Source: an uncultured Chitinophagaceae bacterium (GTDB taxonomy: Bacteria; Bacteroidota; Bacteroidia; Chitinophagales; Chitinophagaceae). Taken from it: DNA of 55,063 nt. The translations under genes were made by a program, and so were the position numbers. The notes under the pieces are model-generated. The model saw nothing but the letters and a program-made list of their open reading frames with translations, was not told the origin of the DNA and did no database searches. Each line of letters starts with the position of its first letter. Within the stretch, counting starts at the first letter, position 1. This document shows, piece by piece, positions 15,568-33,388 of the stretch. Where the stretch lies: positions 1 through 55,063 of the forward strand of contig CAITVK010000102.1 in assembly GCA_903895845.1 (NCBI GenBank), in the 5' to 3' direction.

Positions 15568-15568
15568 C

Positions 15569-15600
15569 AAAAAGACTCAGAGTAATCTGGGTCTTTTTTA
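15569..15600 (+). terminator. Terminator of tRNA-Phe
   Basis: A 13-bp stem (15569-15581 with 15586-15598, one G-T pair) closes a GTAA loop and runs into T residues. Confidence 0.85.
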
Positions 15601-15900: not shown

Positions 15901-16116
15901 CACCCGAGTGGGACTTAGAACCAAGTGAGGGAACGAAAGATTCACGTGAGTGAGGTGCTTATTCAAGTGAGTCAGCGCCTGCCGCACGTGAGTGAGGCGC
16001 TGACTCACTTGAGTGGAACCCCGCCCCACGTGAATCTTTCGCTCCCTCACTTGCGGCTGACTCTGCCGCACCTGCGGGAAGCTCAGACTCAGGTGCAAGA
16101 ATTGCCCACTTACGAG
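15901..16116. repeat. 21-bp-phased palindromic array of CAnnTG hexamers
   Basis: CAnnTG cores start at 15922, 15943, 15964, 15985, 16006, 16027, 16048, 16069 and 16090, nine in a row exactly 21 bases apart. Degenerate units flank both ends. The cores are CAAGTG, CACGTG, CAAGTG, CACGTG, CACTTG, CACGTG, CACTTG, CACCTG and CAGGTG. The central 132 bp (15922-16053) is a near-palindrome centred on CACGTG at 15985-15990. The outer units match as reverse complements at 20 of 21 bases and the 17 bases 15964-15980 match 15995-16011 perfectly. It lies between tRNA-Phe and the 3' end of a surface-protein gene. Confidence 0.93.
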
Positions 16117-16236
16117 GGTGAGGCTATCTCGCCTGTAAAAACTAACAGGTTGTGCGCAATTGGAAAGGCAACTTTATCGAGAGAGGGAAGAGTTGAGGAT
16201 ATGTCTCTACACAAACTGAGAAGTTGAAAGCGGTTG

Positions 16237-17205: not shown

Positions 17206-17229
17206 CTAATTTATTCAGGGTATAAACGA

Positions 17230-17263
17230 AACATAGATGCTAAAAAGTATTAGCATCTATGTT
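17230..17263 (-). terminator. Hairpin downstream of phoH
   Basis: A perfect 13-bp stem (17230-17242 with 17251-17263) lies about 50 bases after the phoH stop on its strand and before the next gene. The T run after it is weak, so a processing or attenuation role is possible. Confidence 0.5.
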
Positions 17264-17312
17264 ATTTAAAAAATATTAAATAATTCAATCACAACCAAAA
17301 GGCAAAATCCTC

Positions 17313-18299
17313 TTATTTGTGGTTCTTTTGGTAGTGATCTTCCTCTTCTTTATGATCTTTATCGTACGCCTTGATGATTGCTTTCACCAATTTGTGCCTC
17401 ACCACATCCTCTTCATCAAGTATTACATGTGCTATCCCATTGATGTTTTGCAATATACGTGTTGCTTTTTCAAGACCACTACGTTGATTTCGAGGTAAAT
17501 CTATTTGTGTAGGGTCACCCGTAATGATGGCTTTTGCATTGGCACCAATACGAGTCAGAAACATTTTCAATTGTAGGTCGTTGGTGTTTTGCGATTCATC
17601 CAAAATAATAAACGCATTATCCAATGTACGGCCTCTCATATACGCCAACGGGGCGATCTCTATGGTGCGGGTACTCATATAATACCCCAATTTGTCGGCA
17701 GGTATCATATCGTCCAAGGCATCATAAAGAGGACGTAAATACGGGTCGATCTTTTCCTTTAAATCACCCGGTAAAAATCCGAGGCTTTCACCTGCTTCAA
17801 CAGCAGGACGTGTCAAGATGATTTTCTTTACGACTTTATTTTTCAATGCCCTTACTGCCAAAGCAACAGCTGTGTAAGTTTTACCCGTACCGGCAGGCCC
17901 AATAGCGAAGACAATATCATTTTTGTCTGCAGCCTGAACCATTTTCTTTTGGTTGGCAGTCCTTGCCCTTACGGTCTTTCCGTTTGGACCAAAAACTAAA
18001 ATGTCATTAGGGTTTTTCTCTACAAAATGATCCACTGTTTCTGCATCATCCCCACCAAGGATTTGTTCGAAATAGTTCTCACTCAAATGCCCATTTCTCT
18101 CTAGGTATTGAACAATGAGATCAATCTTTTCTTTTGCAATGTCAATCTGTTCTGGAGAGCCGCTGATCTTTAGCTGCGTCCCTCTGGATAAGATTTTCAA
18201 TAGTGGAAACCTTTTTTTAAGCACATCGAGTTTTCCATTGTTTACACCAAAGAACTCTATGGGATTTACTGAATCTAGATTGATAATTGTTTCAGTCAA
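17313..18299 (-). CDS. PhoH family ATPase (PhoH-like)
   Basis: The 328-residue protein has a P-loop G-P-A-G-T-G-K-T near 133-140 and a Walker B-like A-F-I-I-L-D-E-S-Q-N near 228-237. The ITGDPTQIDLP motif near 258-268 is diagnostic of PhoH-like ATPases, linked to RNA metabolism. The N-terminal region resembles a KH-type RNA-binding fold. The apparent start is TTG (complement of 18297-18299), in the usual family position; no in-frame ATG gives a better start. A minus-strand TAAATTTG box (18344-18351) could be its promoter. Confidence 0.92.
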   Translation of the reverse strand: MTETIINLDSVNPIEFFGVNNGKLDVLKKRFPLLKILSRGTQLKISGSPEQIDIAKEKIDLIVQYLERNGHLSENYFEQILGGDDAETVDHFVEKNPNDILVFGPNGKTVRARTANQKKMVQAADKNDIVFAIGPAGTGKTYTAVALAVRALKNKVVKKIILTRPAVEAGESLGFLPGDLKEKIDPYLRPLYDALDDMIPADKLGYYMSTRTIEIAPLAYMRGRTLDNAFIILDESQNTNDLQLKMFLTRIGANAKAIITGDPTQIDLPRNQRSGLEKATRILQNINGIAHVILDEEDVVRHKLVKAIIKAYDKDHKEEEDHYQKNHK

Positions 18300-18671
18300 A
18301 GCAATGTGATTTAATGATGAATAAATAAAACAGTATTATTTTTCAAATTTATCGAAATGGGCTACAAGTGTGATTAAGGGTTATACACAGTTTGTGGATA
18401 GATGTATTGACGACTTATCAAGAGACATCAATTCCGTCTTTCATGCAATGATGTGAAAAAATTCCTCCGCTTAATTACATCTTCACAACAAGATTCCGTA
18501 AACATTAAATGATATGGTATAATCTGAAGGTGTTCGACTTTATTATTTTTTACTTCCATGATCTATATTATTTTAACTAACGATAGAGAAAATAATGAAA
18601 TAAAAGCCGTTGCTTTGCTGAAAAGTATAATCCTTACTAAAAGATTCTACTTCGCTAAAATAAATTGAATT
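18300..18671. other. Intergenic, divergent promoter region
   Basis: No gene is visible in this 372-bp AT-rich stretch. On the minus strand TAAATTTG (18351-18344) is a good -7 box for phoH. On the plus strand TACTTCGC (18648-18655) is a weak -7 candidate 16 bases before the gene at 18672. Confidence 0.45.
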
Positions 18672-19226
18672 ATGAAAAAGTTATTTTCTATCACTTGCAT
18701 CCTATTTCTCATGGTTGTAGTGTCAAAGGCGCAGTACACACAACAATTAACAACCGTACGTGAACAGGCTAGGATTTTTACTGAAGCAACTATAAAAAGA
18801 GATTACAAAACAGTTATGCAATACACCAACCTAGAGGGCTTCCCAAAAGGCAAACTCAGTAAAATGACGGAGGAAAGGGTATTAAAAATATTGCAAACCT
18901 CCGATGAACAGATGGTTCAACAAGGGCGAGAAATAAAATCAATTCAGATTGGGGATGTTTTATCCATTGTAAAAGTTGGTTTTGAATTCCAATGTACTTT
19001 AGAGCAAATAACAGACACCAAAATGCAATATGGCAGCATTATTTCCAAAACCACATTGCTTGCAATATCTGAAGACAATGGTAAAACATGGAAGTTTACC
19101 GATGGAACAGGACGCGACTTAAATGATATGAGGAAGATTATTCCTCATTTGAGTGATAAATTAGTATTTGCCAGAACAGAGTCCCCCAAGTTAATTAAAG
19201 ATCCAGTTATTAAAAAACAGCCATAA
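18672..19226 (+). CDS. Secreted hypothetical protein, NTF2-like size
   Basis: The 184-residue protein has a clear signal peptide (MKKLFSITCILFLMVVVSKA, cleavage before QYTQQ). Its opening helices (TVREQARIFTEATIKRDYKTVMQYT) and the later beta strands ending in the SEDNGKTWKFTDGTG turn resemble small secreted NTF2-fold proteins. That is an inference from pattern. It starts a three-gene plus-strand run with the NUDIX hydrolase (16 bases later) and the ATP-grasp-like protein. The exact role is unknown. Confidence 0.75.
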   Translation: MKKLFSITCILFLMVVVSKAQYTQQLTTVREQARIFTEATIKRDYKTVMQYTNLEGFPKGKLSKMTEERVLKILQTSDEQMVQQGREIKSIQIGDVLSIVKVGFEFQCTLEQITDTKMQYGSIISKTTLLAISEDNGKTWKFTDGTGRDLNDMRKIIPHLSDKLVFARTESPKLIKDPVIKKQP

Positions 19227-19242
19227 CACAATATCGTTAACC

Positions 19243-19791
19243 ATGAAAAAAAATAACCCTGCAACAACTGTTTCAGATTCAAAAAACACTGAACCTTCTA
19301 TTATAAGTTCATTCACTATCCGCGTTTATGGAATCTTAATGGATGACAAGAAACGGATTCTTGTAAGCGATGAATTTATTAGAGGAAATTACTTTACAAA
19401 ATTCCTAGGCGGAGGATTGGAGTTGGGAGAAGGCACAAAAGATTGTTTAAAAAGGGAGTTTAAAGAAGAAACAGGGATGGATGTTATCATTGGAAACCAC
19501 ATTTATACAACAGATTACTACCAACAATCGGCATTTAATAGTAGCCAACAAATTATAGCCATTTATTATTTTGCAAAAAGTGTAGATACAATCCATGTAG
19601 AAGCTAAGTTGACTCCATTCGACTTCACTCCCCAACAAACAGCAGATCCAAATGGGCAAAGTGAAGTCTTGCGCTGGGTTAGTTGGGATGATCTGACAGA
19701 AGATACGGTTCACTTACCCATCGATAAAATAGTAGTGCGCCTGATAAAAAAAGAGTACACAAGTTATTTAGAAAAAAGAGTATCACTCTAA
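19243..19791 (+). CDS. NUDIX hydrolase
   Basis: The 182-residue protein has a Nudix box G-G-G-L-E-L-G-E-G then R-E-F-K-E-E-T-G-M near residues 49-74, with the metal-binding glutamates in place. Residues about 18-40 form the expected first strands (FTIRVYGILMDDKKRILVS). The substrate cannot be inferred. The N-terminal 18 residues are polar and probably disordered. It lies 16 bases after the secreted-protein gene and 57 bases before the ATP-grasp-like gene. It is only distantly similar to the NUDIX protein at 7982-8419. Confidence 0.88.
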   Translation: MKKNNPATTVSDSKNTEPSIISSFTIRVYGILMDDKKRILVSDEFIRGNYFTKFLGGGLELGEGTKDCLKREFKEETGMDVIIGNHIYTTDYYQQSAFNSSQQIIAIYYFAKSVDTIHVEAKLTPFDFTPQQTADPNGQSEVLRWVSWDDLTEDTVHLPIDKIVVRLIKKEYTSYLEKRVSL

Positions 19792-19848
19792 TCCTGTTGG
19801 TTCTTCGTATTCATTAATATTCTGTACGAAATCAATTAAATACTGCAA

Positions 19849-21045
19849 ATGATACCTAGCATCCGGAAAAGTTTTAATGATAAATTTACGCTTGGTCAAT
19901 ATAACGCTTTTTTAGAGGCAATTAAAAGCAAATTCCCTGGCTCTATTGAATTCCGTCTTGCCGAAACCCCTGTTTTTATTGACAAAGGATTCAAAGAGAA
20001 GATGATTTCGACCTGTGAAAGCATCATTGATTTGATAGTAGCCCCCAGCTTCAAATCCTTAACAAGTAATTCCGTTCCAACAGGATTTAATATTCCTGCT
20101 GAAAGCAATTATTCAGACTTCATCGCTTTTGATTTTGGCATTTGCACTAATGAGAAAGAGGAATTAGAGCCACAATTAGTAGAAATGCAAGGTTTTGCCA
20201 GCCTATTTGCTTTCGAAGTATGGCATGATGAAATATTTAGAGCACAATTTGAGATTCCAGATCACTTTAGTCCCTATTTAAGTGGCCTAAATAAAGAATC
20301 TTATCTCAAATTATTGAAAGAAATAATCACAGATGGGTGTCCGATTGAAAATGTGGTATTACTAGAATTGCTACCTGAGGAACAAAAGACTAAAGTTGAT
20401 TTTTATTTTACCAAAGAGTACATTGGCATCGAGACAGTCTGCTTAACAGCATTAATTAAAGAGGGCAAACAATTGTTTTACCTGAAAGAGGGAAAGAAGA
20501 CTCAAATAAAAAGGATATTCAACCGTATCGTTTTCGATGATTTATCTCATCAACCAATAGAAATACAAGAAAAAGGAAAGATTTTATTAGAAGATCTGGA
20601 GGTTGAATGGGTTCCTCATCCTAATTGGTTTTATAGAATCAGCAAATACACATTGCCCTTTATCAAACATCCGTATGTTCCTGAAACAGTCTTTCTAAAT
20701 GATGCTATGATTAACCCGTCTACATTGGAAGATTACGTTCTAAAACCCCTTTTCTCATTTGCAGGGCAAGGAGTAGTGATAGATGTTACCCCAGAAGACA
20801 TTGCTGCTGTTGAAGATCCTCAGAATTGGATATTACAACGCAAAGTGACATACGCAGATGTGATAAAAACGCCGAATGAACCCGCCAAGGCGGAAATACG
20901 TATCTTTTATTTCTGGCCTAAAGGAGCAGAACGCCCCATTCCAACTTGCAATCTGACGCGAATAAGTAAAGGAAAGATGATTGGGGTTCGTTATAATGCC
21001 GACAAAGACTGGGTTGGTGGTAGCATTGCCTATTTTGAAGAATAG
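19849..21045 (+). CDS. ATP-grasp-like hypothetical protein
   Basis: The 398-residue protein has no signal peptide. The segment Y-V-L-K-P-L-F-S-F-A-G-Q-G-V-V-I near 294-309 looks like the ATP-grasp nucleotide-binding strand and glycine-rich loop. WILQRKV near 328-334 and the AEIRIFYFW segment near 348 resemble the strands that carry later ATP-binding and metal residues. I infer a circularly permuted ATP-grasp ligase, perhaps of the glutathionylspermidine-synthase type, but no family is certain. It follows the NUDIX gene and is convergent with the anti-sigma-like gene. Confidence 0.7.
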   Translation: MIPSIRKSFNDKFTLGQYNAFLEAIKSKFPGSIEFRLAETPVFIDKGFKEKMISTCESIIDLIVAPSFKSLTSNSVPTGFNIPAESNYSDFIAFDFGICTNEKEELEPQLVEMQGFASLFAFEVWHDEIFRAQFEIPDHFSPYLSGLNKESYLKLLKEIITDGCPIENVVLLELLPEEQKTKVDFYFTKEYIGIETVCLTALIKEGKQLFYLKEGKKTQIKRIFNRIVFDDLSHQPIEIQEKGKILLEDLEVEWVPHPNWFYRISKYTLPFIKHPYVPETVFLNDAMINPSTLEDYVLKPLFSFAGQGVVIDVTPEDIAAVEDPQNWILQRKVTYADVIKTPNEPAKAEIRIFYFWPKGAERPIPTCNLTRISKGKMIGVRYNADKDWVGGSIAYFEE

Positions 21046-21068
21046 ATTCGATTACTTTTTTGTTGAAT

Positions 21069-21428
21069 CTATCGTCCTCCTTGCAAGTGAATGATAAAAT
21101 AGGTGATTATACTCAAAAATAACACAACAACTACTGCAAGCATCGCCCATTGATTGGCTGGCAGCCTACGCTTCTGTTTTCGTTTCGTTTTATTTTGTAC
21201 AAGCTTATTTAAGTGCTGATTTAACTCTGCTATTGATTGATTAATCTGGTCTTCATCGGTCACTTCATTCAGTCCTTCAACTGCATCCATCAAAAAAGGG
21301 TCTTCCGCAATATTCTTCTCCACCATTTGTTGCGCCTCGGTTGACAAATTATGCTTTACAAATTCAAGCAGTTGCTGTTCGTCCACCACTTCCTTTTCGC
21401 TCTTTATTATTTTATGTAAATCTTTCAT
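21069..21428 (-). CDS. Anti-sigma-factor-like membrane protein
   Basis: The 119-residue protein has a soluble acidic N-terminus with E-D-P-F-L-M-D-A-V-E-G-L near 42-53, common in Bacteroidota anti-sigma and related regulators. A Lys/Arg-rich linker follows (NKTKRKQKRRL) and then one membrane segment near 91-113. A cytoplasmic domain with a single transmembrane helix fits an anti-sigma factor. It lies two bases after the truncated ECF sigma gene, its expected partner. Because that partner is broken by the inversion, this protein may now be an orphan. Confidence 0.72.
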   Translation of the reverse strand: MKDLHKIIKSEKEVVDEQQLLEFVKHNLSTEAQQMVEKNIAEDPFLMDAVEGLNEVTDEDQINQSIAELNQHLNKLVQNKTKRKQKRRLPANQWAMLAVVVVLFLSIITYFIIHLQGGR

Positions 21429-21430
21429 CG

Positions 21431-21823
21431 CTATTGTTTCAAATGATTCTCTACCAAAATCTTTAGGTTCCGTTTTCCGTTTTGTATGTAGCTTTTCACT
21501 TCCAGCATAGAGTAGTTTGTGATACTACTTACTTCCTGATAGCTCTTCTTTTGCAAATAAAACAATGTAAGGCAAGTGCCTTGCTCTTTATTTAACAATG
21601 GCAGGCAAAGTTCAATTGCTGTTAAGGTTATTTCGTTGTGTTGTAAGGCAAAAAAATCTGTTTCTTCAGCCAATAACGGCAATTCATCCCCTAACTGCAA
21701 CGTATTGTTTTTATTTCGTAGCAACAACAAACAATGATTCTTGACAACCGTGTACAACCAAGTCTTAAAATAGGTGACCCTATATCTTTTCAGCTCGGTA
21801 ATTGTCTTTAAAAACACTTGTTG
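21431..21823 (-). pseudogene. ECF RNA polymerase sigma factor, 3' part (cut by inversion)
   Basis: The frame from GTG at 21817 encodes 128 residues: the end of region 2 (V-F-L-K-T-I-T-E-L-K-R-Y-R-V, then YFKTWLYTVVKNHCLLLLRN) and region 4 (LNKEQGTCLTLFYLQKKSYQEV...). The first ~58 residues of the sigma factor are missing here. They are found on the other strand at 27563-27736. The CAACAA sequence (minus strand 21823-21818) codes for the two shared glutamines at the join. The joined frame is 186 residues, normal for an ECF sigma factor. As it stands it lacks sigma region 2.1-2.2 and is probably non-functional. Confidence 0.9.
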
Positions 21824-21990
21824 GCTAATGCTTTTACCCCGATAGCAACGTCTGCATTCAGGTCAATTTTATTGAGGACCAACATCTCCACAATGGGACT
21901 ATCGTCCCCATCCATCTTCATTTTAGACACTATGTTTTCCAAAAAAGCGGTTTGTTCCTCGATAGCTGAGGGATAATTGATGCGTGCCAT
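21808..21990 (-). pseudogene. Two-repeat hypothetical protein, 5' part (cut by inversion)
   Basis: From the ATG complementary to 21988-21990 the frame encodes M-A-R-I-N-Y-P-S-A-I-E-E-Q and ends in ...I-G-V-K-A-L-A-N, then runs out in foreign sequence to a stop at 21808. The remaining part lies at 27737-28502. Joining the two at the CAACAA hexamer gives one 312-residue protein with the frame kept. This N-terminal part aligns with the start of the second repeat in the distant part (KITYPSDTEERIK), showing they were one protein. Confidence 0.88.
21818..21823. other. Left inversion junction (TTGTTG)
   Basis: The hexamer TTGTTG on the plus strand is the inverse of CAACAA at 27731-27736. Swapping the strand of everything between the two restores both cut genes. 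Confidence 0.88.
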
Positions 21991-22214
21991 TCGTATGTAC
22001 TTATATGGAGCAAAAGGGCTCTTGTTAAGAAAGCACACAAGCTACCACTAATGCGGGATAATCAATGAAAAGGGTATATTATTCTGGATTAATATCCCTA
22101 ATTGTATGAAATGAGCGTTTGAAAACAGAAAGTGCAAACGGAATAATCCTGAAACAGCATTTGTGGGTAAGCATCCCTGCCAAACAGTTATCTTTACGCA
22201 ACAATAAACTAGCA

Positions 22215-22787
22215 ATGGAATTATATATAAAGAACATGGTATGTCCCCGTTGCAAGATGGCGGTTGAAACAATACTGAAAGAGGAGGATTTGCAATATAT
22301 AAAAGTAGAATTGGGGGAAGTATTGTTGAAAAATGAGGCGGCAGGATGGCAACTGGAACGATTAAAACGCAAATTGGAGGCAGTAGGGTTTGAATTGTTG
22401 GACGATCATCGGAAAATGTTGATTGATAAGGCAAAAAATCTACTGATTGAGCTTGTGCAGCAAGGTAACATAGACGAACACTTTGCCTTGAGTGTATATA
22501 TCTCCAAAAACATTCACAAAGAATATTCAACAGTGTCTAAATTGTTTACACAACTGGAAAGTATTACGCTGGAACAATATTTTATCCTTCAAAAAATAGA
22601 AAAAGTAAAAGAATGGCTGGTATATGACGAGTTTTCATTGTCTGAAATCTCCTATAAACTGGGATATAGCAGTGTTGGTTATCTCAGTAATCAGTTTAAG
22701 CGAATAACGGGGCTTACACCATCGGCATTTAAGGCCAATCATAAGGGATTGAGAAAAACATTAGATAATGTGAATGAGAATAAGTAG
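22215..22787 (+). CDS. AraC-type regulator with CxxC metal-binding-like N-terminus
   Basis: The protein of about 190 residues starts at ATG 22215 with M-E-L-Y-I-K-N-M-V-C-P-R-C-K-M-A-V-E. The C-P-R-C motif and following strand resemble an HMA metal-binding fold. The C-terminal region from about 90 is a pair of AraC helix-turn-helix units (FALSVYISKNIHKEYSTVSKLF, then SLSEISYKLGYSSVGYLSNQFKRITGLTPSAFK). It probably senses copper or a related metal and controls the genes that follow (HMA chaperone, HYC_CC_PP, TonB receptor). The longer frame from 22119 adds atypical residues and is rejected. Confidence 0.88.
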   Translation: MELYIKNMVCPRCKMAVETILKEEDLQYIKVELGEVLLKNEAAGWQLERLKRKLEAVGFELLDDHRKMLIDKAKNLLIELVQQGNIDEHFALSVYISKNIHKEYSTVSKLFTQLESITLEQYFILQKIEKVKEWLVYDEFSLSEISYKLGYSSVGYLSNQFKRITGLTPSAFKANHKGLRKTLDNVNENK

Positions 22788-22902
22788 CAAGTTGCAGTTT
22801 GAAAGAATGTAAAAACTCGTTTAACTACAAATCATTTCCCTAATAGTGTAACAAATGAGGGTTTAGAAAGGGTCATCTTTGCGGTTGATTAAAAAAGATA
22901 AG

Positions 22903-23112
22903 ATGGAAAATAAGCTTTTCAAGACGAATATTAATTGCGATAGTTGCAAAGCCAAGGTTACAAATACGCTAAATGAATTGGTTGGTGAGGACAATTGGAC
23001 TGTTGATACCACTACCCCCATAAAACTATTGACGATAGATAATGAGGCTGTTTCTGCTAGCACAATTTCGGAGGCATTGAGCAAGATTGGGTATTCGGCG
23101 ATTGCGATTTGA
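22903..23112 (+). CDS. HMA-domain copper chaperone
   Basis: The protein of 69 residues starts at ATG 22903 (MENKLFKTNINCDSCKA). It is a single HMA domain. N-C-D-S-C-K near residues 10-15 supplies the CxxC metal site, and TISEALSKIGYSAIAI at the end is the closing helix and strand. It has no signal peptide, so it should act in the cytoplasm as a CopZ-like copper carrier. It sits between the AraC-type regulator and the HYC_CC_PP gene, supporting a metal-handling operon. Confidence 0.88.
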   Translation: MENKLFKTNINCDSCKAKVTNTLNELVGEDNWTVDTTTPIKLLTIDNEAVSASTISEALSKIGYSAIAI

Positions 23113-23212
23113 TAAACAATTGATAATAAAAGTAGGAGATGATGAGAGTCACTAAAAATAATTAGATCAGCAGTTACTTTTACACTCATAAAGAAAAGAA
23201 CATACAGAAAAA

Positions 23213-23605
23213 ATGAAAAAGGTAGTCGTCATATTGTTGTTATTTGCTTACGGTATTTCATCGTTTGGCGCGACTATACACGAGCATTACTGTATGGACA
23301 AACTAGTTTCGTCTAGTTTGGAAAACAAGATAGGCGGATGCGGTAGCAAAGGCACGATGGGCGGGATGCAGAAGGGCAAATGCTGCAAACATGTGTACAA
23401 ACAAGTAAAAGTTGAGAACCATTATAAGGATGCTGTAGCCGGAATGAGCTATGAAAAATTCATCGCGTCAGCTATTCCTACTTATTATGATCCGATTACT
23501 ACCGAAAACATTACCTCTACAAATAATAATGCCTATCTAAAACAACCTTTCAGGCGAAAAACCAACAATAAAATCTATATCCTAGACTGCGTCTACAGAA
23601 TTTAA
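23213..23605 (+). CDS. HYC_CC_PP family secreted protein
   Basis: The 130-residue protein has a signal peptide (MKKVVVILLLFAYGISSFGA). It carries E-H-Y-C-M near 24-28 and G-K-C-C-K-H near 56-61, the HYC and CC motifs of the HYC_CC_PP family, which co-occurs with copper-linked TonB receptors in Bacteroidota. The third motif is only weakly matched (Q-P-F-R near 109), so the PP part may be degenerate. It is inferred to bind a soft metal in the periplasm. It precedes the HMA-TonB receptor by 96 bases. Confidence 0.8.
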   Translation: MKKVVVILLLFAYGISSFGATIHEHYCMDKLVSSSLENKIGGCGSKGTMGGMQKGKCCKHVYKQVKVENHYKDAVAGMSYEKFIASAIPTYYDPITTENITSTNNNAYLKQPFRRKTNNKIYILDCVYRI

Positions 23606-23701
23606 TACTTAGCATATTTAGTTTAGTACTTATCAAGCATAAAGCTCACCGTTTTTGCTTGTGACAAGTACGTTATTAATTTATTCTAACTATTAAATAA
23701 A

Positions 23702-26269
23702 ATGAAAACGATATATCTATTGTTGTTGTGCTTGTTGATTGGCGTTACATCTGCCATAGCGCAAAGGAAACATGCAAAAACAGATTCATTAATGGTCTAT
23801 GGCAACTGTAGCCAATGCAAAGACCGCATAGAAAACGCATTAAAAGACTATGGCATTGCCAAAGTAAACTGGGATATTGACACAAAAATGCTCACCGTAT
23901 CCTTTGATAGCAGTAAGTACTCCCTTGCGGGCATTCAAAAGCAATTGGCAGAGGTGGGGCATGATACAAAGACCATAAAAGCCACAGATGCAGCCTATAA
24001 TAAGTTGCCAAGCTGTTGTAAATATGAACGTGAATTGAGTGGATTGGGTACAAATGCTACGATTGATACTGCGCACGCATCCATTGCTGCACCTATAATG
24101 GGCGTTGTATTGGAAGAGAACAAAAAAGGGATGTTTTTACCCATTTCGAATGCAACAATAAGGCAGCTAACAAGCGCTTATGCCACCGTTACAGATAGTT
24201 TGGGGGTATTTAAATTGCCTTATCACACACTGCCCACCAAAGTAGTGGTGAGTTTTGTGGGATATGTGTCTGATACACTCACGATAACCAATACCCGTGA
24301 GGTAAAAGTGATTTTACGCAACGATAAAACCCATACGTTGCAGGAAGTAACCGTGAAATCGGGGAGAGGCTTCTCCTCTTATGTATCAACTGTCAGCACA
24401 CTGAATACTTTGAACATTGGTTCGAGGGAAATTGCCAAAGCAGCGTGTTGTAATCTCTCCGAAAGCTTTGAAACGACGCCATCAGTTGACGTTTCTTACA
24501 GTGATGCCGTAACAGGAATCAAGCAAATACAACTTTTGGGGTTATCAGGCAACTATACGCAGATAACAACAGAGAATATTCCCGAGATAAGGGGACTAGC
24601 AGGGGCTTATGGGCTGACATTTATTCCTGGGCCGTGGCTAGAATCGGTGCAAGTGACCAAAGGAACCGGCTCTGTTGCCAATGGATATGAAAGTATTGCA
24701 GGACAGATAAATATTGAAGAGAAAAAGCCCGATGCCCCTGAGAAACTGTTGGTAAATGGGTATGCTAACATGCTGGGAAGGCTAGAAGCAAGCGTGAATA
24801 TGGGACATAAAATCAGTAACCGATGGGCAACCACTTTGTTGATGCACGCAAACAACACTTCTGTGAAAACAGATGACAATAATGATGGCTTTCTGGATGT
24901 ACCAATTGGTCATCAGTTGAATTTTTTGAACAGATGGCGTTATGCCGATAACAAAGGCGTGATTGTTCAGTTTGGGATAAAGGTATTGAGTGATCATCGG
25001 CAGGCTGGTCAGGTAAGTTTTAATCCAGACAATGATAAATTAACGACCAATGCGTATGGTGTAGGTATCAACATCAAACAACAGGAGGCATTTGGTAAGG
25101 TAGGGTATATATTTCCGGGGAAAAAGTATAAGAGTGTAGGTTTTATCTTTTCGGCGAAGGATTATACCAATGATTCTTATTACGGACTGAATGGGTATAA
25201 TGGCAAGCAAAGTTCTATTTATGCTAATTTAATCTATCAGTCCATCATAAATACAACAGCTCATAAGTTTAGAACAGGATTCAGTTTCGCAAATGATACG
25301 TATAAAGAAACTTTTTCTGCAAACAGCTACAAAAGGACAGAAACGGTGCCGGGAGCTTTCTTTGAATATACCTATTCTCCCAATGATAAGTTTACTGCGA
25401 TTCTAGGTTTGAGAGAAGATTACCATAATCAGTTCGGTTTTATCACCACGCCACGTTTACACGTTAAATATGACCTAACACCTAAAACGAATGTGCGGTT
25501 TTCGGCAGGTTCTGGGTTCAGAGTGGCAAACATCTTTGCAGAAAATACAGGTTTGTTCATCAGTAGCAGGCAGTATGCGATACTTAATCCAACCAATAGT
25601 TATGGCTATGGTTTGAATCCGGAGAAAGCGTGGAATTATGGCATCAACTTCACCCATCAGTTCCAGATTAATAAAAGAAAAGGCTCTTTTGGTGTAGATG
25701 TGTACCGTACTGACTTCACAAGTCAAACAATTGCAGATGTAGATGCCAATCCGCAGCAGATAAACTTCTATAACCTAGATGGAAAGTCCTATTCAAACAG
25801 TGTTCAGGTGGAATCTAACTACCAGTTGGCAGAACGGTTGGATGTTCGATTAGCTTATCGGTGGTTGGATGTACAAACGACCTATCATGGGCAATTGATG
25901 GAGAAGCCATTGAAAGCAAAACACCGTGCTTTTGTGAATCTGGCGTATGAAACGAAGAATCATTTCAAGTTCGATTTCACCACACAATGGTTTAGCAGCA
26001 AACGATTGCCCAATACCCAAAGTAATCCTGCTGGCTTGCAGCAATCAGCCAATTCGCCTTCCTATTTTCAACTGGCAGGACAGGTTACGAAGGTTTGGGG
26101 AAAGAAATGGGAGGTTTATGTGGGAGGAGAAAACCTGACGAATTACAAACAACAACAATTGTTTATAGATGGTGCGCATCCATTTAGTAACTATTTTGAT
26201 GGAAGCATGGTGTGGGGGCCGATTGCGGGAAGAATGTTTTATGTAGGGTTCAGATTTAAAGTATTGTAA
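23702..26269 (+). CDS. TonB-dependent receptor with periplasmic HMA domain (copper type)
   Basis: The 855-residue outer-membrane receptor has a signal peptide (MKTIYLLLLCLLIGVTSAIA), then an HMA-like domain with G-N-C-S-Q-C-K at about 34-40 ending in L-P-S-C-C-K near 101-106. A carboxypeptidase-like domain follows at about 130-205, then a plug with A-A-C-C-N-L-S-E-S-F near 246-255 and the LLGLSGNYTQITTENIPEIRG segment. A beta barrel ending in FYVGFRFKVL completes it. The added metal-binding domain and CC motif suggest copper import or sensing. It is downstream of the regulator, chaperone and HYC_CC_PP genes. Confidence 0.9.
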   Translation: MKTIYLLLLCLLIGVTSAIAQRKHAKTDSLMVYGNCSQCKDRIENALKDYGIAKVNWDIDTKMLTVSFDSSKYSLAGIQKQLAEVGHDTKTIKATDAAYNKLPSCCKYERELSGLGTNATIDTAHASIAAPIMGVVLEENKKGMFLPISNATIRQLTSAYATVTDSLGVFKLPYHTLPTKVVVSFVGYVSDTLTITNTREVKVILRNDKTHTLQEVTVKSGRGFSSYVSTVSTLNTLNIGSREIAKAACCNLSESFETTPSVDVSYSDAVTGIKQIQLLGLSGNYTQITTENIPEIRGLAGAYGLTFIPGPWLESVQVTKGTGSVANGYESIAGQINIEEKKPDAPEKLLVNGYANMLGRLEASVNMGHKISNRWATTLLMHANNTSVKTDDNNDGFLDVPIGHQLNFLNRWRYADNKGVIVQFGIKVLSDHRQAGQVSFNPDNDKLTTNAYGVGINIKQQEAFGKVGYIFPGKKYKSVGFIFSAKDYTNDSYYGLNGYNGKQSSIYANLIYQSIINTTAHKFRTGFSFANDTYKETFSANSYKRTETVPGAFFEYTYSPNDKFTAILGLREDYHNQFGFITTPRLHVKYDLTPKTNVRFSAGSGFRVANIFAENTGLFISSRQYAILNPTNSYGYGLNPEKAWNYGINFTHQFQINKRKGSFGVDVYRTDFTSQTIADVDANPQQINFYNLDGKSYSNSVQVESNYQLAERLDVRLAYRWLDVQTTYHGQLMEKPLKAKHRAFVNLAYETKNHFKFDFTTQWFSSKRLPNTQSNPAGLQQSANSPSYFQLAGQVTKVWGKKWEVYVGGENLTNYKQQQLFIDGAHPFSNYFDGSMVWGPIAGRMFYVGFRFKVL

Positions 26270-26438
26270 CCGGGAATAGCATTCGACGGGGAATTTATAG
26301 AGGGGTTTTAGATTGTTATTCCATGGGCGTAGTTAGCAAAAAATGATGGGTGGTAATTTCATACAACATTTTTTATGAATAAAATCATATTTATGTATTG
26401 TGAATACCATTACCTTCATTTTTTAAATTAGGAACTAT

Positions 26439-27494
26439 ATGAAACATTTGAAGGTTTACAGTAAGCAGGATGTATTGGCAAACACAACGATTCGTCGTTT
26501 CGAAACTAAGATAGGCGAACGCATACAAGTGATTAAAGATGCCAAACAATTGGAAGAATCACTACAAAGTTCGAATGCACGGTATGTGATTGTTGGGGTT
26601 TTGGAGGCAATCGGGGCTAAAGGCAACCTGAGTACGATAGAAACGGAGAGTGTGTGGCAGCCATTTCTAAAATCTTTCTTGAATGTGCAGAGTAATGACT
26701 TTCTGGAAGGGGGAGAATTGTTGTTGTTGGGACATTTTGATTTTGGAGATGTGGCAAATATTATAGAACAATCGGCACAAACCTTCGATGAAAAGGTAGA
26801 CGCGTATCGTCATGCAGTGAATATAATAGATGCTGAAGTAGAACAGATTGTGCACATGATTACGCAAAATAAAAAGTTGCCAATTATAATAGGAGGGGGG
26901 CAAAACAACGCATATCCTTGTATAAAGGGTTCGGCCAAAGGGTGGTTTAAGAGCGGGGTGATACCATTTGCACAGATTAATGCCATTAATGTTGATACCT
27001 GCGCAGACTACAGACCATTGGAAGGCAGACATAGTGGGAATGCGTTCAGATATGCTGAAGAAGATGGGTATCTGGAGAAATATTGCGTAGTAGGACTCCA
27101 TGAAAACGAAATACAGCAGAATGTATGGTTGGATATTGTGAATAATCCGTTTATGGATTGCATCACTTTTGAAGATATTTTCTTGCATGAGAAAAGAACT
27201 TTCTTAGAAGCAATCGATCATGCCACCGAATTTACCATTGATACCTTGTGTGGAATAGAACTAGACTTGGGAAGTATAGAAAACAGTGCAACTTCAAATA
27301 CGCATTCAACAGGAATTACTTCTATTCAAGCAAGACAGTATTTATATTTTGCTGCATTGGATAGTCAACCAGCTTATTTGCACATTTGTGAGGGAGGTCG
27401 AAACGTTGCCAAGGACGGCGACGGAGCAGCAACCGGATCATTGGTAAGTTATCTGGTAACTGATTTTATAAAAGCCTTGTTGCAAGGATATTAA
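26439..27494 (+). CDS. Arginase/formimidoylglutamase-family protein with altered metal site
   Basis: The 351-residue protein has the ureohydrolase fold pattern. Near 150 it reads G-G-G-Q-N-N-A-Y-P where the family usually has G-G-G-H. Near 188 it has N-V-D-T-C-A-D-Y-R instead of N-x-D-A-H-x-D. Near 272 it has E-L-D-L-G-S-I-E-N instead of L-D-L-D. Thus three of the six manganese ligands (two His, one Asp) are changed, although the rest (RPLEGRHSGN, GLHEN) is conserved. It may be a pseudoenzyme or bind another metal. It lies inside the inverted segment, just upstream of the sigma fragment. Confidence 0.85.
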   Translation: MKHLKVYSKQDVLANTTIRRFETKIGERIQVIKDAKQLEESLQSSNARYVIVGVLEAIGAKGNLSTIETESVWQPFLKSFLNVQSNDFLEGGELLLLGHFDFGDVANIIEQSAQTFDEKVDAYRHAVNIIDAEVEQIVHMITQNKKLPIIIGGGQNNAYPCIKGSAKGWFKSGVIPFAQINAINVDTCADYRPLEGRHSGNAFRYAEEDGYLEKYCVVGLHENEIQQNVWLDIVNNPFMDCITFEDIFLHEKRTFLEAIDHATEFTIDTLCGIELDLGSIENSATSNTHSTGITSIQARQYLYFAALDSQPAYLHICEGGRNVAKDGDGAATGSLVSYLVTDFIKALLQGY

Positions 27495-27562
27495 AAAAAA
27501 GGTTGTGTCCCTTTATGGAAAAGTATGCTTAGTGTATCTAACTAATAATCAACTTTTGTTTT

Positions 27563-27760
27563 GTGCCAGCAGAAAAATATAATAACCTATCGGACGAAGA
27601 ATTGCTATCCTGCTATTACAAAGACGGCGATAGTGAATGGTTGGGCGTTTTATTGCAACGGTATACACTTTTATTGTACGGCGTTGCAATGAAATACCTG
27701 AAAAATGATGCGGAAGCGCAGGATGCTGTGCAACAATACACTCTTTCTGGCATTGGATAA
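27563..27760 (+). pseudogene. ECF sigma factor, 5' part (cut by inversion)
   Basis: From GTG at 27563 the first 58 codons encode sigma region 2.1-2.2: E-K-Y-N-N-L-S-D-E-E-L-L-S-C, then VLLQRYTLLLYGVAMKYL, ending in E-A-Q-D-A-V-Q-Q at the CAACAA of 27731-27736. The seven codons after it (Y-T-L-S-G-I-G) and the stop are foreign. The missing rest, starting with V-F-L-K, is on the opposite strand at 21817-21431. A possible -7 element (AACTTTTG) lies upstream of the start. Confidence 0.9.
27731..27736. other. Right inversion junction (CAACAA)
   Basis: This hexamer is the inverse copy of the left junction at 21818-21823. To the left is the sigma factor 5' part, to the right the 3' part of the two-repeat protein. 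Only six bases are shared. Confidence 0.88.
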
Positions 27761-28502
27761 GAAGGCGCATAACCATCGCCAGCAGCGCGATAAAGTGATG
27801 AAACCCATTCTTAAACACCTGAGGGGCTGCTTCAGATTCCTAAAAGAATGGTCAATGCCCAACTTTAAAGCAATAGGCGATTGGGGTGGTACTATTACGG
27901 ATGGAGGTAAAATTACTTACCCTTCAGACACAGAAGAAAGAATCAAATTGTTATTATTATTGAAGAAAAAACATGATAGTTACACCGATTCCGACAGCCC
28001 TTTATTGCCTTTTCTCACTGCAAACCAGATTAGTCTGGAGGATGATGCAACAAGTGGGGCAACAGCTATCGAAAATAATTTTGCTTTTAATGCGTTGATG
28101 AAAGAAGCCCTGAAAGCACGTGAGGATAGGGATAAAGATTGGAAGGACCCAATGAAACACATCCGGAAAGTGGGACAATACCTAAAAACTTCATACCCAA
28201 AAAACGTAAATATGCTCGGACTTTATGGCTTTTTGGTTGTTTTGGCAGCAAAAGTTGCCAAAAAGAGAAGCATCAAAATGGGTATTTCAGCTAATAAGCT
28301 AGGATTGAGGACAAAAGTGGGACGCATAATTGAAAACCTAGGCACGGGCGACTTATACATCTACAAAGGAAAACTACTGACAGGCACTCCCCTCCTATTA
28401 AAGGCCGCAATCAAACTCAGTATGACAAAGGGATACAGCATTTTTTCGGTCAGCAATCCTTCCACTACCGAACCAGGAAAATTTCTGTACTTTCCATTGT
28501 AA
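27731..28502 (+). pseudogene. Two-repeat hypothetical protein, 3' part (cut by inversion)
   Basis: After the junction the frame reads T-L-F-L-A-L-D-K-K-A-H-N-H-R-Q-Q-R-D-K and continues for about 255 residues to a stop at 28502. It contains the end of repeat 1 (KHLRGCFRFLKEW...GDWGG), a complete repeat 2 (KITYPSDTEERIK...KHIRKVGQYLK) and a C-terminal basic domain. Its N-terminal 58 residues are at 21990-21818 on the minus strand. The frame upstream of the junction (from 27705) is not real. The function is unknown. It is perhaps expressed as a chimera with the sigma fragment. Confidence 0.86.
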
Positions 28503-29008
28503 TTTATTGCTCAACAAGACTTTATTTTAGCCAATAATCTCCCAATTATTACTAATACGCCTCCATTTCTTACACAAACGAGCCATTTTCTTACCCATTA
28601 TTTAACTGTTTTGGTGCGTAATAACCTGATTCTTGCTCAAATAAGCCCCTTAGTTTGAGAAAACCCCTCTGTTTCGGTAATATTTGGAGGGTATTTAGAC
28701 GAAAAATGCCTCGTTTGTGTAAAAACAGTTGAATAATGAGTAAAAAAAGAAGGGGGATGATGACAAAAAGGGAAAAGATTAAGTAAGAAATAAGCGTGTT
28801 GTTGCAAGAAATAGGTCGTGCTATGCCGTGCCTACGGCACTATTCGCTGTTTATGGGTTTGATTGCTACCAATAGTTCGTCCCTAGTGGAACTTTTTAAA
28901 CTGCATGAGGAAGGAAGGTTTGGTTTATTGAAGGAGGAAGGATATATTTGATTTTTACTTGATAATTTTATCAACTCTTAAATAATTCCAAATTCAAAAA
29001 TTCAAATT
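28503..29008. other. Intergenic region with degenerate repeats
   Basis: The 506-bp gap holds a degenerate ~21-bp array (28541-28740) and a short hairpin GTGCC-TAC-GGCAC at 28828-28840. I see no gene. Just before the next gene the sequence is AT-rich with repeated AAATTCAA. Confidence 0.55.
28541..28740. repeat. Degenerate ~21-bp array with permuted inverted blocks
   Basis: CC/CT-led units (about 28563, 28583, 28605, 28625, 28647, 28667) and GTTT/GTAT-led units (28671, 28691, 28713) are spaced about 20-22 bases. Two blocks recur inverted: 28572-28590 matches 28701-28720 and 28596-28612 matches 28722-28738 (one mismatch). Their order is A, B, A', B' rather than a nested palindrome. The period is weaker than in the other arrays. 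Confidence 0.5.
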
Positions 29009-29509
29009 ATGGCTAGAATAAAAATAAGAATTGGAGATATTTTTTCTGTTTCAACCGAAAACGACAAAAAAAAATACTTTCAATACATAACAAATGACTT
29101 ATTACAACTTAATAGCGATGTGATAAGGGTATTTAAGAAGGAATATTCAATATTTATTGAACCTCAATTATCTGAAATAGTTACCAATGAAGTTGATTTT
29201 GTAGCTCATACTATGCTTAAAGTAGGTCTTAAAATGGATTTATGGAAAATAGAAGGGAACATTGCTTATAATGAAAAAGAAAAAACTATTTTCAGAAATA
29301 CAAACGACTACGGCTCAAGACCAGGAGAGCAAATAGAGACTTCTGAGAGATGGTACGTATGGAAAATTGGTGATAGTGATTTTAAAAGAGTTGGAAAATT
29401 GAATGGAGAGAATAGGAAATCTGAAATAGGTGTAGTAATAAATCCTTTAAGTATTGTTCATAAAATGAAAACTGGTGAATATGATTTTTTTTATCCAAAT
29501 TATGACTAG
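29009..29509 (+). CDS. Imm26-like hypothetical protein
   Basis: The 166-residue protein begins M-A-R-I-K-I-R-I-G-D-I-F-S-V and continues with KKYFQYITNDLLQLNSDVI, a pattern like Imm26-type immunity proteins (IGDIF-S followed by strands). It has no signal peptide. Such proteins normally neutralise a toxin encoded nearby, but I find no toxin gene here. It lies in an AT-rich accessory-looking patch beside the degenerate array. The family call is tentative. Confidence 0.55.
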   Translation: MARIKIRIGDIFSVSTENDKKKYFQYITNDLLQLNSDVIRVFKKEYSIFIEPQLSEIVTNEVDFVAHTMLKVGLKMDLWKIEGNIAYNEKEKTIFRNTNDYGSRPGEQIETSERWYVWKIGDSDFKRVGKLNGENRKSEIGVVINPLSIVHKMKTGEYDFFYPNYD

Positions 29510-29547
29510 GCTTTTCTCATTCCATCCAATAAAATACATTTACTCTT

Positions 29548-30690
29548 ATGATTTCTAAGCTTCCCAACGTTGGTACCACCATTTTTACGGTCATGAGCGC
29601 GCTAGCGGCAAAGCATCAGGCCATAAACCTGGGACAAGGCTTTCCCGATTACCCCATGAGTGAGGCTTTAACGCAACTAGTGGCAAAAGCAATGCGGGAT
29701 GGCTTTAATCAGTATATGCCCATGGCAGGTTATGGCCCATTATTGGAAGCTATTGCCGCCAAAGTGGAGTTATTATACGGCACACAGTTGAAAGCACAGT
29801 CCGAAATAACCATTACGCCCGGTGGCACATACGCTATCTACTCCGCCATCACCGCAATGATTCATAAAGGGGATGAAGTCATCGTTTTTGAACCTGCTTA
29901 TGATAGTTATATCCCCAATATTGAAGTAAATGGTGGTATTGCTGTACGGATTCCGCTGCAACATCCCTCCTACTCCATCAATTGGGAGGCCGTGCGGGCA
30001 GCTATCACGCCCCGTACGAAAATGATTGTCATCAATTCGCCCCATAACCCAACGGGGGCAGTGCTTTCAGCCTACGATATAGAACAATTGAGGCAAGTGG
30101 TGGCGGATACCTCCATTACTATCATCAGCGATGAAGTATATGAACACCTTATCTTCGATAACCTGCCCCATCTGAGCCTTTTGCGGTATCCTGACCTTCG
30201 GGAAAGGGCGTTTATCTGCTTCTCCTTTGGTAAAGTCTACAACTGTACAGGCTGGAAAATGGGTTATTGCATTGCACCCGAAGCCTTAACGAAAGAATTT
30301 AGAAAAGTACATCAGTTTAATTGCTTTAGCGTGAATAGTCCCATGCAAGTAGCACTGGCAACGCACCTTTTTCAGCAAGAAGACTACCTGCAACTGTCGG
30401 GAATACTCCAACAAAAGCGCGATTATTTTAGGGAACTGATGCAAGGAACACCTTTTGAAGTGCTTCCATCCTACGGTAGCTATTTTGAGCTGTACAGTTA
30501 TGCCAGTTTTAGTGAGGAAAGTGAGCAAGCATTGGCAGAACGACTAGTAACGGAATGCGGTGTGGCAACCATCCCTGCATCGGCATTCTACAAAGACGGC
30601 ACCGACCACAAAGTATTGCGTTTCTGCTTCGCAAAGAAAGAATCTACGCTAGAAGAAGCCGTATACAGATTGAAAAAAGAGCTAAGTTGA
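29548..30690 (+). CDS. PLP-dependent aminotransferase, methionine aminotransferase type
   Basis: The 380-residue class I aminotransferase has S-P-H-N-P-T-G-A near 168-175, S-D-E-V-Y-E-H near 200-206, and the PLP-lysine motif S-F-G-K-V-Y-N-C-T-G-W-K-M-G-Y near 226-240. The opening GTTIFTVMSALAAKHQAINL and GQGFPDYP match the YbdL/methionine aminotransferase group. Such enzymes often act on methionine or aromatic amino acids, in methionine salvage for example. A strong terminator lies downstream. Confidence 0.9.
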   Translation: MISKLPNVGTTIFTVMSALAAKHQAINLGQGFPDYPMSEALTQLVAKAMRDGFNQYMPMAGYGPLLEAIAAKVELLYGTQLKAQSEITITPGGTYAIYSAITAMIHKGDEVIVFEPAYDSYIPNIEVNGGIAVRIPLQHPSYSINWEAVRAAITPRTKMIVINSPHNPTGAVLSAYDIEQLRQVVADTSITIISDEVYEHLIFDNLPHLSLLRYPDLRERAFICFSFGKVYNCTGWKMGYCIAPEALTKEFRKVHQFNCFSVNSPMQVALATHLFQQEDYLQLSGILQQKRDYFRELMQGTPFEVLPSYGSYFELYSYASFSEESEQALAERLVTECGVATIPASAFYKDGTDHKVLRFCFAKKESTLEEAVYRLKKELS

Positions 30691-30801
30691 TTAGTGTAGA
30701 TAATTGATTACCAATAAACAAAGAATAATTTCATCCATAAGCCTCTTTTAGTAAACAGCATTGGTTATCAGTACCTAACACTAGCATTATTGGAAAATAA
30801 A

Positions 30802-30832
30802 AATCCCTTGAAGCGAATCTTCAAGGGATTTT
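30802..30832. terminator. Bidirectional terminator
   Basis: A perfect 12-bp stem (30802-30813 with 30819-30830) closes a CGAAT loop between convergent genes and has T/A runs on both sides. Its CCCTTGAAG core resembles the terminator at 1297-1338. Confidence 0.85.
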
Positions 30833-30867
30833 ATATAAGTTCACAACCCATCATTCAAAACAACTAT

Positions 30868-33321
30868 CTATCTTCTTACTCGCTGATAAATCGACATAAA
30901 GAAACCTAGTACGGTAATGATTACGCCTATCCATAGTACCAATATCATCGGGAACTCATATACTTTCAGGGTTACAAGGTCTGTGATAGCTGCGCTTTCT
31001 TTCACGCCTAGTTCCAGTTTACCTTGCTTTTGATCGATTACTTTATTGAATTTAAAGATAAGATTCTGTGAGATTACACTATCAGGCAAATCTCTCAACT
31101 CGGTACCCTTCAACGCAATACCCGGGAATGCCTTATAGCGCCTGCCATCTTTTGCAATCACTTCCAAGTTCATAAACAAAGAAGTCTCGCCCTCTTTTAC
31201 ACGATCTTTCTGCTCTGCAGGATTCACGTCTACCTTGTGCAATATCATCAATCCACTACTATAAAACAAGGTATCCCCTACCTTCAGTTCACGCCCAACA
31301 AACTTGGCAGTATCTGCGGCATTATTCTCTTTGTAGGAAGAAATGTAAACGAATATATCTTTATACCAATAGTGTTTGCTGGCAGGATTAGCGGCAAACC
31401 CCTCTGCACCCTTGTTATTTTTAATTAAATCGGGATATAGAAAGAACTGCTCATCGGATGTTTTAGAGGCAAATTTTATCTCGAAGAAACGCTTACGTTC
31501 TTTCTCATTAAAAGTATCTCTGCCATACGTAACCATGTACTTACCCATGTCTGTAGCAACTCCTTTAAAGAGGGTAATATTCTCGGCGGGATCTTCTTTT
31601 TTATCCTTTTGGAAAACAGAAATACCTGTTGTATTCCAACTAAGCACTGTCTTCTTGCTTGAGGAGATTAATATACCAACGAGTATCAATCCAAAGCCAA
31701 CATGTGCCACAGATGCACCAGCCGCCTTTATTTTCCCTCTCAAAACCAACAATATATAGCCTGCATTGGCAACGGTTGCATAGACAGAAGCGAAGATGGC
31801 CACATGGATTGCACCTAAGAAACCCGCCCCTTTCTGGTTGTAATTGATAGAGCCGAACACGCTGATTAACACACTAACCAATAATGCAACAGCAGTAGGC
31901 AACCATATCTTTTTGGTAAATTGTCCACGAGGGGTATCCTTATATTTCAGGTACTGCGTTACGGCAGTCAATAATCCAAGAATAATACAGACAAAAACCT
32001 GTACCTGGTTATAAGCAAAAACAGGATCTTCGGAAGAAGCTAATGTTTGATCGAATAGTTTATTGTAGATAGGAACTGAGGTTTTAAGGATAATTAATAT
32101 GGCAGAAAGGAATAGTACCAACGAGCCTATAAACATCCAGAATTCCCGACTGTAAGTGCTTTCTTCTTTGACAATAGTGGGGATTGATTTGTAGCGGATA
32201 CCATAAATGAGAAAAGCTGGGAATACAAATATCAACAGGAATATAAGCAACTGTGTGTTCATACCAAGGTCGGTAAAGGCGTGTACAGAAGTATCGCCCA
32301 ATACGCCACTACGGGTAAGGAAAGTGGAATATAATACCAGCAAAAAGCTGAGTGTATAAAACAGATAAGTGGTGCGAAGACTATAGCCTGTTGTTTTGTA
32401 AATCATGTTGGTATGCAATCCGGCCACCATCACCATCCAAGGTACCAGAGAAGCATTCTCTACAGGATCCCAGGCCCAATACCCCCCGAAAGTTAAACTT
32501 TCATAGGCCCAAGCAGCCCCCATCATGATACCCAGACATAGGATACCACCACTAAAAGCAGCCCATGGCAAAGCAGGTTTCACCCAACAATGGTCTCTAT
32601 TATATAACCCTGCCATGGCAAAGGCAAAAGGCACGATTGTACTAGCGAAACCCAAGAATAAGATAGGGGGATGTATCACCATCCAATAGTTTTGCAATAG
32701 GGTATTCAACCCCTGACCATCTTTTATCAGTGTAAGATAATCACTACGTAATCCTCCATTTATTACATCTTGAAAGATGGGTGCGTTGTCAAGGATTCCC
32801 TCATTACGAAGCAAAGCAAAGGGGCTGCTGCCCAACTTGGCTCCATAAAAATAGAAGCCAACAAGCATACTAGCCAAACAGAATTGGGCAAAACTGATAA
32901 CAGTCAATGTACCCGCTTCCCAGTCTTTTGCACGCCAAATCAATAACCATCCAAGAACACAATTCCAGAAAGTCCACAACATAAAGCTTCCTTCCTGACC
33001 TTCCCAGAAACAACTGAAAAGATATTGCACTTGCAAGCCTTTGTCGCTATGCTCCCAAGCGTATTTGTATTCGAATAAATGATGAGAGATGATATAGTAT
33101 AACGTAGCAAAGCCAACAAGTACAGAAACAGTTTCTATAAAGAAACAAAGCCTTGCAAAACGTAACCAACTTTGTTTTTCTTGTATGAGTGAAGCACTTT
33201 CTGCCTTTATATTATTTGACCAAAAGAAGGCGATAGTGGCTAACAAAGAGGCTATAAAAGAAAGAATATTGAAGAAATGACCAATCTGACCGTATAATAA
33301 ATGTTCGTCCGTATAATGCAT
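30868..33321 (-). CDS. ccmF: Cytochrome c biogenesis protein CcmF-type (haem lyase component)
   Basis: The 817-residue protein is an integral membrane protein with more than a dozen hydrophobic segments. The haem-handling tryptophan motif (G-G-Y-W-A-W-D-P-V-E-N-A-S-L-V-P-W) lies near residues 275-291. A large C-terminal soluble region at about 560-780 precedes a last membrane segment. This is CcmF, which attaches haem to apocytochrome c with CcmH. ccmE is 67 bases upstream on the same strand. No other ccm genes are in the window. Confidence 0.92.
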   Translation of the reverse strand: MHYTDEHLLYGQIGHFFNILSFIASLLATIAFFWSNNIKAESASLIQEKQSWLRFARLCFFIETVSVLVGFATLYYIISHHLFEYKYAWEHSDKGLQVQYLFSCFWEGQEGSFMLWTFWNCVLGWLLIWRAKDWEAGTLTVISFAQFCLASMLVGFYFYGAKLGSSPFALLRNEGILDNAPIFQDVINGGLRSDYLTLIKDGQGLNTLLQNYWMVIHPPILFLGFASTIVPFAFAMAGLYNRDHCWVKPALPWAAFSGGILCLGIMMGAAWAYESLTFGGYWAWDPVENASLVPWMVMVAGLHTNMIYKTTGYSLRTTYLFYTLSFLLVLYSTFLTRSGVLGDTSVHAFTDLGMNTQLLIFLLIFVFPAFLIYGIRYKSIPTIVKEESTYSREFWMFIGSLVLFLSAILIILKTSVPIYNKLFDQTLASSEDPVFAYNQVQVFVCIILGLLTAVTQYLKYKDTPRGQFTKKIWLPTAVALLVSVLISVFGSINYNQKGAGFLGAIHVAIFASVYATVANAGYILLVLRGKIKAAGASVAHVGFGLILVGILISSSKKTVLSWNTTGISVFQKDKKEDPAENITLFKGVATDMGKYMVTYGRDTFNEKERKRFFEIKFASKTSDEQFFLYPDLIKNNKGAEGFAANPASKHYWYKDIFVYISSYKENNAADTAKFVGRELKVGDTLFYSSGLMILHKVDVNPAEQKDRVKEGETSLFMNLEVIAKDGRRYKAFPGIALKGTELRDLPDSVISQNLIFKFNKVIDQKQGKLELGVKESAAITDLVTLKVYEFPMILVLWIGVIITVLGFFMSIYQRVRR

Positions 33322-33388
33322 AAAGCGTGTTTAAACTATTCCCCCTTGGGTGCAATAAATTGAGAATGTGTAATTGTGTGCGGTAGGA

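Follow-up and report, generated by a model that had tools for sequence, protein, structure and literature searches.

A recent inversion of about 5.9 kb probably split an ECF sigma factor gene and a two-repeat protein gene in a Chitinophagaceae genome

The DNA analysed here, referred to as the window, comprises 55,063 nucleotides and represents one complete contig (G000:C102) of a 4.01-Mb draft genome of an uncultured Chitinophagaceae bacterium (138 contigs, 99.3% complete). A preliminary description had proposed that an inversion of about 5.9 kb cuts an ECF sigma factor gene and a gene encoding a protein with two internal repeats, and this observation turned out to be right to the base. The genes at the locus are listed below with their counterparts in two relatives, G001 and G010. 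The latter, MAG Ki1-1-6m_bin-0879 of an uncultured Chitinophagaceae bacterium, is the closest holder of the sigma gene, and its contig C120 corresponds to CAISCV010000120.1.

21069..21428, minus strand: anti-sigma-like gene, intact, 119 aa, downstream of the sigma C-terminal half; 81.5% identical in G010
21431..21817, minus strand: broken ECF sigma gene, C-terminal part (rest of region 2, region 4); Sigma70_r4_2 E 8.9e-7
21818..21990, minus strand: broken two-repeat gene, N-terminal part; 73.7% identical to the N-terminus of the whole G001 copy
22119..22787, plus strand: AraC-type regulator gene, in the inverted segment; HTH_18 E 7.9e-14
22879..23112, plus strand: heavy-metal-associated (HMA) domain gene, in the inverted segment; assigned by Pfam, its DNA inside the G010-aligned block 22188-23606
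23213..23605, plus strand: gene for a 130-aa protein, in the inverted segment; 79% identical in G010, same block, no Pfam family
23702..26269, plus strand: TonB-dependent receptor gene with HMA domain, in the inverted segment; assigned by Pfam, 92% identical in G010
26439..27494, plus strand: arginase-family gene, in the inverted segment; PF00491 E 7e-9, 92% identical in G010
27563..27736, plus strand: broken ECF sigma gene, N-terminal part; 94.8% identical to residues 1-58 of the whole G010 sigma factor
27737..28502, plus strand: broken two-repeat gene, C-terminal part; 82.7% identical to the whole G001 copy

Coordinates, strands and frames of the four fragments were as originally claimed, and reading across the joins restored both genes. 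Joining 27563-27736 (plus strand) to 21817-21431 (minus strand) yielded an ECF sigma gene of 186 codons (58 + 128 residues), and joining 21990-21818 (minus strand) to 27737-28502 (plus strand) yielded a two-repeat gene of 312 codons. The Pfam matches of the two sigma fragments were complementary, the N-terminal fragment covering positions 1-28 of Sigma70_r2 and the C-terminal fragment positions 31-69 followed by Sigma70_r4_2. Both half matches to Sigma70_r2 (PF04542) remained under the curated cut-off, as expected of half domains, and Sigma70_r4_2 (PF08281) was over its cut-off. The intact G010 ortholog matched TIGR02937 over the cut-off, and window positions 21434-21829 matched residues 55-186 of this protein. 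Both genes are cut in the assembly; both would now be inactive, and neither is expected to give a full product.

The gene beside the sigma C-terminal half was found intact, as had been noted. No family matched it at its Pfam cut-off, and its putative anti-sigma-like role was assigned from its position and a hydrophobic C-terminal stretch. A homolog of this gene follows the sigma gene in six out of six compared flanked loci (L037, L043, L045, L047, L048 and L052, the match in L048 being partial), a count that leaves out the sigma loci of G005, G008, G011 and G012. Farther away in the window, the search against Rfam at gathering scores identified a single tRNA at 15495-15567.

The two-repeat proteins constitute a multi-copy family of about 312 residues. 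The internal repeats reported for the joined protein are genuine: in the intact G001 copy, repeat 1 aligned to repeat 2 with a score of 137, which was reached by none of 2000 shuffles (maximum 56). The family occurred in 12 of 39 genomes and 2 of 27 genera, including 11 of the 13 genomes of the genus to which the window belongs, and whole copies were read in G001, G004, G010 and on contig C103 of the window's own genome. This genome contains two more copies, on C103 and C37, and no other copy above 41% identity. Internal stops occurred in 4 of 46 two-repeat matches, such copies being present in G003, G006 and G012. The N-terminal fragment in the window matched no Pfam family and the C-terminal fragment gave only a match under the cut-off; likewise, no NCBIfam family was found for three whole copies, no Pfam family at E 0.01 for seven members, and no PDB match by profile at E 0.1. 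A fold predicted from the single sequence of the C-terminal half was discarded (mean pLDDT 40.2).

The positions of the two junctions were taken from alignments of the window to the corresponding loci of G010 (L037) and G001 (L038).

21818..21823, no strand: left inversion junction, TTGTTG (CAACAA on the minus strand); the L037 alignment stops at 21823, the L038 alignment starts at 21818
27731..27736, no strand: right inversion junction, CAACAA; the L037 alignment stops at 27736, the L038 alignment starts at 27731

On the sigma side, window positions 20580-21823 (forward) and 23683-27736 (reversed) aligned to L037 1-1246 and 5292-1241, the two blocks overlapping by six bases (L037 1241-1246). 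On the two-repeat side, window positions 21818-22337 and 27731-28957 aligned to L038 5111-5630 and 5116-3891, again with an overlap of six bases (5111-5116). Both junctions were thus base-exact and reciprocal in the alignment against the relatives, with no base gained or lost, and the segment between them is oriented opposite to the relatives. As stated in the preliminary description, CAACAA/TTGTTG was the sole sequence common to both junctions, and no similarity continued beyond the hexamer. In addition, no longer inverted repeat spanning both breakpoints occurred among the 25 longest of 92 inverted pairs. With random breakpoints placed 5-7 kb apart in this window, junction homology of at least six bases arose with a chance of 0.002 (2 million trials), indicating that the breakpoints were probably brought together by short homology. 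The hexamer itself is unremarkable in the window, CAACAA occurring 58 times and its complement TTGTTG 53 times (111 in total). The sigma and two-repeat genes have 263 hexamer pairs and two 10-mer pairs in common, and that the longer 10-mers were not used counts against the inversion.

The check in relatives for whole genes, as had been suggested, identified the sigma gene whole in G010 and the two-repeat gene whole in G001. In G010 the sigma gene (186 codons) is flanked by the anti-sigma-like gene on one side and the arginase gene on the other, and C120 carries, in a single run, the anti-sigma-like gene, the whole sigma gene, the arginase gene, the TonB receptor gene, the 130-aa gene, the DNA of the HMA gene and the AraC-type gene. 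The orientation of these genes is that predicted by undoing the inversion; the AraC-type and anti-sigma-like genes, for example, share a strand in G010 and are on opposite strands in the window. The TonB receptor and 130-aa genes are separated in G010 by two extra genes, for which the window has no space. In G001, contig C245 harbours the whole two-repeat gene (312 codons) adjoining the start of an AraC-type-like gene, whose similarity to the window gene is only 52% over the part present before the contig ends. A short piece of the window's next gene, encoding an aminotransferase, is also located downstream of the two-repeat gene in G001. This piece (L038, G001:C245, 2625-2767) consists of 143 bases from the 5' part of the gene (window 29512-29654) and stands alone; a near full-length aminotransferase match was present on G001:C55, and the piece may represent a duplicated or left-behind gene fragment.

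The two uninverted junctions are accordingly attested independently, each by one relative, the sigma side by G010 and the two-repeat side by G001. Both old junctions together were found in no single genome: G010 lacks the two-repeat gene at this place, and in G001 (88% complete) no sigma ortholog and no match to arginase were detected. As a control for gene order, blocks of window positions 1-19999 and 28000-47999 were mapped, which fell on many contigs of the fragmented G010 and G001 drafts; this comparison left out window positions 48000-55063 and the rest of the genome. Short sequences at window positions 28822-28895, and also at about 136-186, 1265-1340, 37030-37114 and 37523-37611, matched several to many contigs of both G010 and G001, some of them on both strands. 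These appear to be dispersed short repeats of the genus, palindromic or built from short words.

Among the 13 genomes of the genus, which include that of the window, a sigma ortholog (E at most 1e-57) occurred in one piece in 10 of the 12 others and was split in the window's genome only. The remaining two, G001 and G009, are the least complete genomes and showed distant sigma matches only. The 10 one-piece orthologs include a G002 copy that matches from residue 20 on and a G003 copy with an in-frame TGA. The TGA replaces codon 42 (L052, G003:C349, 5110-5667), which in G004 is TGC for Cys, and may be either a second independent loss of the sigma factor or a sequence error. As the sigma gene is in one piece in the relatives and split solely in the window's genome, the inverted arrangement is the derived state, and on comparison of these sequences we regard the direction of change as settled. 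The opposite view, that the halves are separate genes by descent and not broken pairs, could point to the possible start codons of the fragment ORFs. However, it is refuted by the relatives examined, that is, by the one-piece sigma orthologs and the four whole two-repeat copies (G001, G004, G010 and C103), and we assign it hardly any probability.

As a further line of evidence on the direction, the flank of the arginase gene was compared. This gene converges with gene 19849 in the four relatives that show both genes (L037, L042, L046 and L053), and in the window the two genes point in the same direction. The comparison comprised six arginase loci and nine further ones, of which L044, L049 and all nine further loci had no match to gene 19849; a tenth additional locus, L056, is a repeat of L037. 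In G003, G004 and G006 (L042, L046 and L053) the two genes are immediately adjacent and convergent, with the sigma/anti-sigma pair located on another contig, while in G010 the pair lies between them, suggesting that the pair has moved in or out.

No nonsense codon or frameshift was present in the gene halves (1491 nt), which indicates that the break is young. Compared with G010, dN/dS was 0.05 for the N-terminal and 0.09 for the C-terminal sigma half, with values of 0.04-0.20 for five neighbouring genes (gene 19849, which had been set out of frame, excluded). Over 89 columns in which five outgroup genomes agree, the window and G010 had two private changes each. In the two-repeat alignment, the row of the window protein was one residue short at the join as it had been trimmed to whole codons. 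Divergence since the break was estimated at less than 0.0375 substitutions per site, a rough 95% bound which assumes that the halves are unconstrained, and synonymous divergence from G010 was 0.5 to 1.2.

Regular return of a gene to the on state would leave the same picture, and the age test is therefore compatible also with a programmed reversible switch (inverton), in which a recombinase flips the segment and its orientation determines whether both genes are on or off. That all halves of the two genes have retained open, conserved reading frames, as if the intact state were revisited, would fit such a switch, as would the reciprocal exchange without loss. The genome encodes seven tyrosine recombinase matches, and according to the part of PMC5903667 that was available, a recombinase can be encoded at a distance from its site. 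However, none of the seven matches is on this contig, and a scan of 20 proteins or fragments from the 15.9-33.9 kb region gave no recombinase, although one encoded nearby would be common, if not obligatory, for an inverton. No serine recombinase (PF00239) was found in the genome. The inverted repeat at the ends extends to six bases only, as opposed to 10-40 nt (PMC11892184) or typically 10-20 (PMC5903667) in invertons as described in the available sections of these sources. Moreover, a hexamer present 58 times in one and 53 times in the other orientation in the window cannot alone be a recognition site, and no similarity continues outside it. Only one orientation was found in the draft, and in no relative examined were the sigma and two-repeat genes in one stretch, several contigs ending close by, so that no conserved switch was observed. 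A programmed switch is therefore very unlikely. An even less probable version is a slow reversible two-gene switch. Here a tyrosine recombinase encoded elsewhere would act at a crossover of six bases whose flanks are degenerate and flip the 5.9-kb metal/arginase segment; the ECF sigma factor and the two-repeat protein would be turned off jointly, and the anti-sigma-like gene and the two-repeat C-terminal half would exchange their leaders.

The junctions are known from one assembly alone, and a true order that is uninverted, with chimeric reads or a scaffolding step having flipped a contig, was considered as an assembly or library artefact. In favour of this, the window makes up a single entire contig within a draft of 138 contigs, and sequencing libraries are known to contain chimeric reads. 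For spontaneous inversions in Salmonella, the part of PMC3411829 (Sun et al., 2012) available to us gives confirmed junctions with over 10 bp, a deduced cut-off of at least 12 bp, and 7-9 bp as the length used to tell single-read junctions from library chimeras. The six bases found here are below all of these values, which argues against a confident call from single reads and against a full analogy. On the other hand, both reciprocal junctions are exact to the base at the same six bases with nothing lost, which makes an assembly error unlikely. The contig is also free of N, a k-mer assembler should not join sequences on six bases without reads crossing them, and two independent chimeras at matching positions would be improbable. 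In addition, the sigma C-terminal half had one match in the draft, the other two-repeat copies were at most 41% identical, and no contig with the alternative junctions was found. An artefact is hence unlikely.

The three options that had been left open initially were a recent inversion, a rare switch and an assembly error; of these, a recent inversion is best supported, its junctions being matched by two relatives. The locus is most probably the product of a single, recent and conservative inversion of about 5.9 kb at inverted six-base microhomology, by which both genes were lost. The inversion would have arisen in the lineage that this Chitinophagaceae genome represents, or in a part of its population. 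Its ends would have met at the inverted CAACAA copies in the sigma and two-repeat genes and been exchanged reciprocally without base loss or gain. No match to the Ku family was found in the genome (the control was positive in 1 of 14 genomes), and Ku-dependent end joining was rejected as the route; short-homology exchange or replication template switching may instead have served. As a result, the anti-sigma-like gene would have lost its partner and come to lie after the 5' end of the two-repeat gene. At the other junction, the two-repeat C-terminal half now follows the arginase gene and the sigma N-terminal half. The event may have been tolerated since further two-repeat copies exist and the genome carries other, distant ECF sigma matches, and tolerance of the double gene loss is plausible.

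This kind of event is already known. A literature search yielded no report of this locus, a weak result as the queries named neither the locus nor the organism. The case nonetheless provides a clean natural example of an inversion that breaks genes at an inverted microhomology of six bases, here in a Bacteroidota genome in which Ku was not detected, with both junctions resolved against relatives, and it illustrates how an anti-sigma gene may be orphaned in one step. It is also a warning, as gene-by-gene annotation could list sigma fragments and hypothetical proteins and miss that one event underlies them. Should both orientations occur in the reads, the locus would become a candidate for an unusual switch.

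Compared with known systems, the locus resembles ECF sigma/anti-sigma pairs in that regions 2 and 4 are present and an anti-sigma-like gene is positioned directly downstream. It differs in that the two parts of the sigma gene lie 5.9 kb from each other and on opposite strands, and in that the anti-sigma-like gene has no Pfam match over the cut-off. With invertons, as far as described in the available text of PMC11892184 and PMC5903667, it shares an inversion that is reciprocal and conservative and would alter gene states. In contrast to these, it has no repeats of 10-40 nt, no recombinase was found nearby, the breakpoints are inside two coding sequences, and the segment is far longer than the fimbrial switches of 296 and 266 bp (PMC5903667). 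The likeness to the Salmonella inversions, judged from the same portion of PMC3411829, consists of an inversion with short inverted homology at its ends; the junctions there were not near IS200 elements either, and inversions made by recombinases were set aside. However, the homology here amounts to six bases, both reciprocal junctions were seen, and the inverted form has reached an assembled genome.
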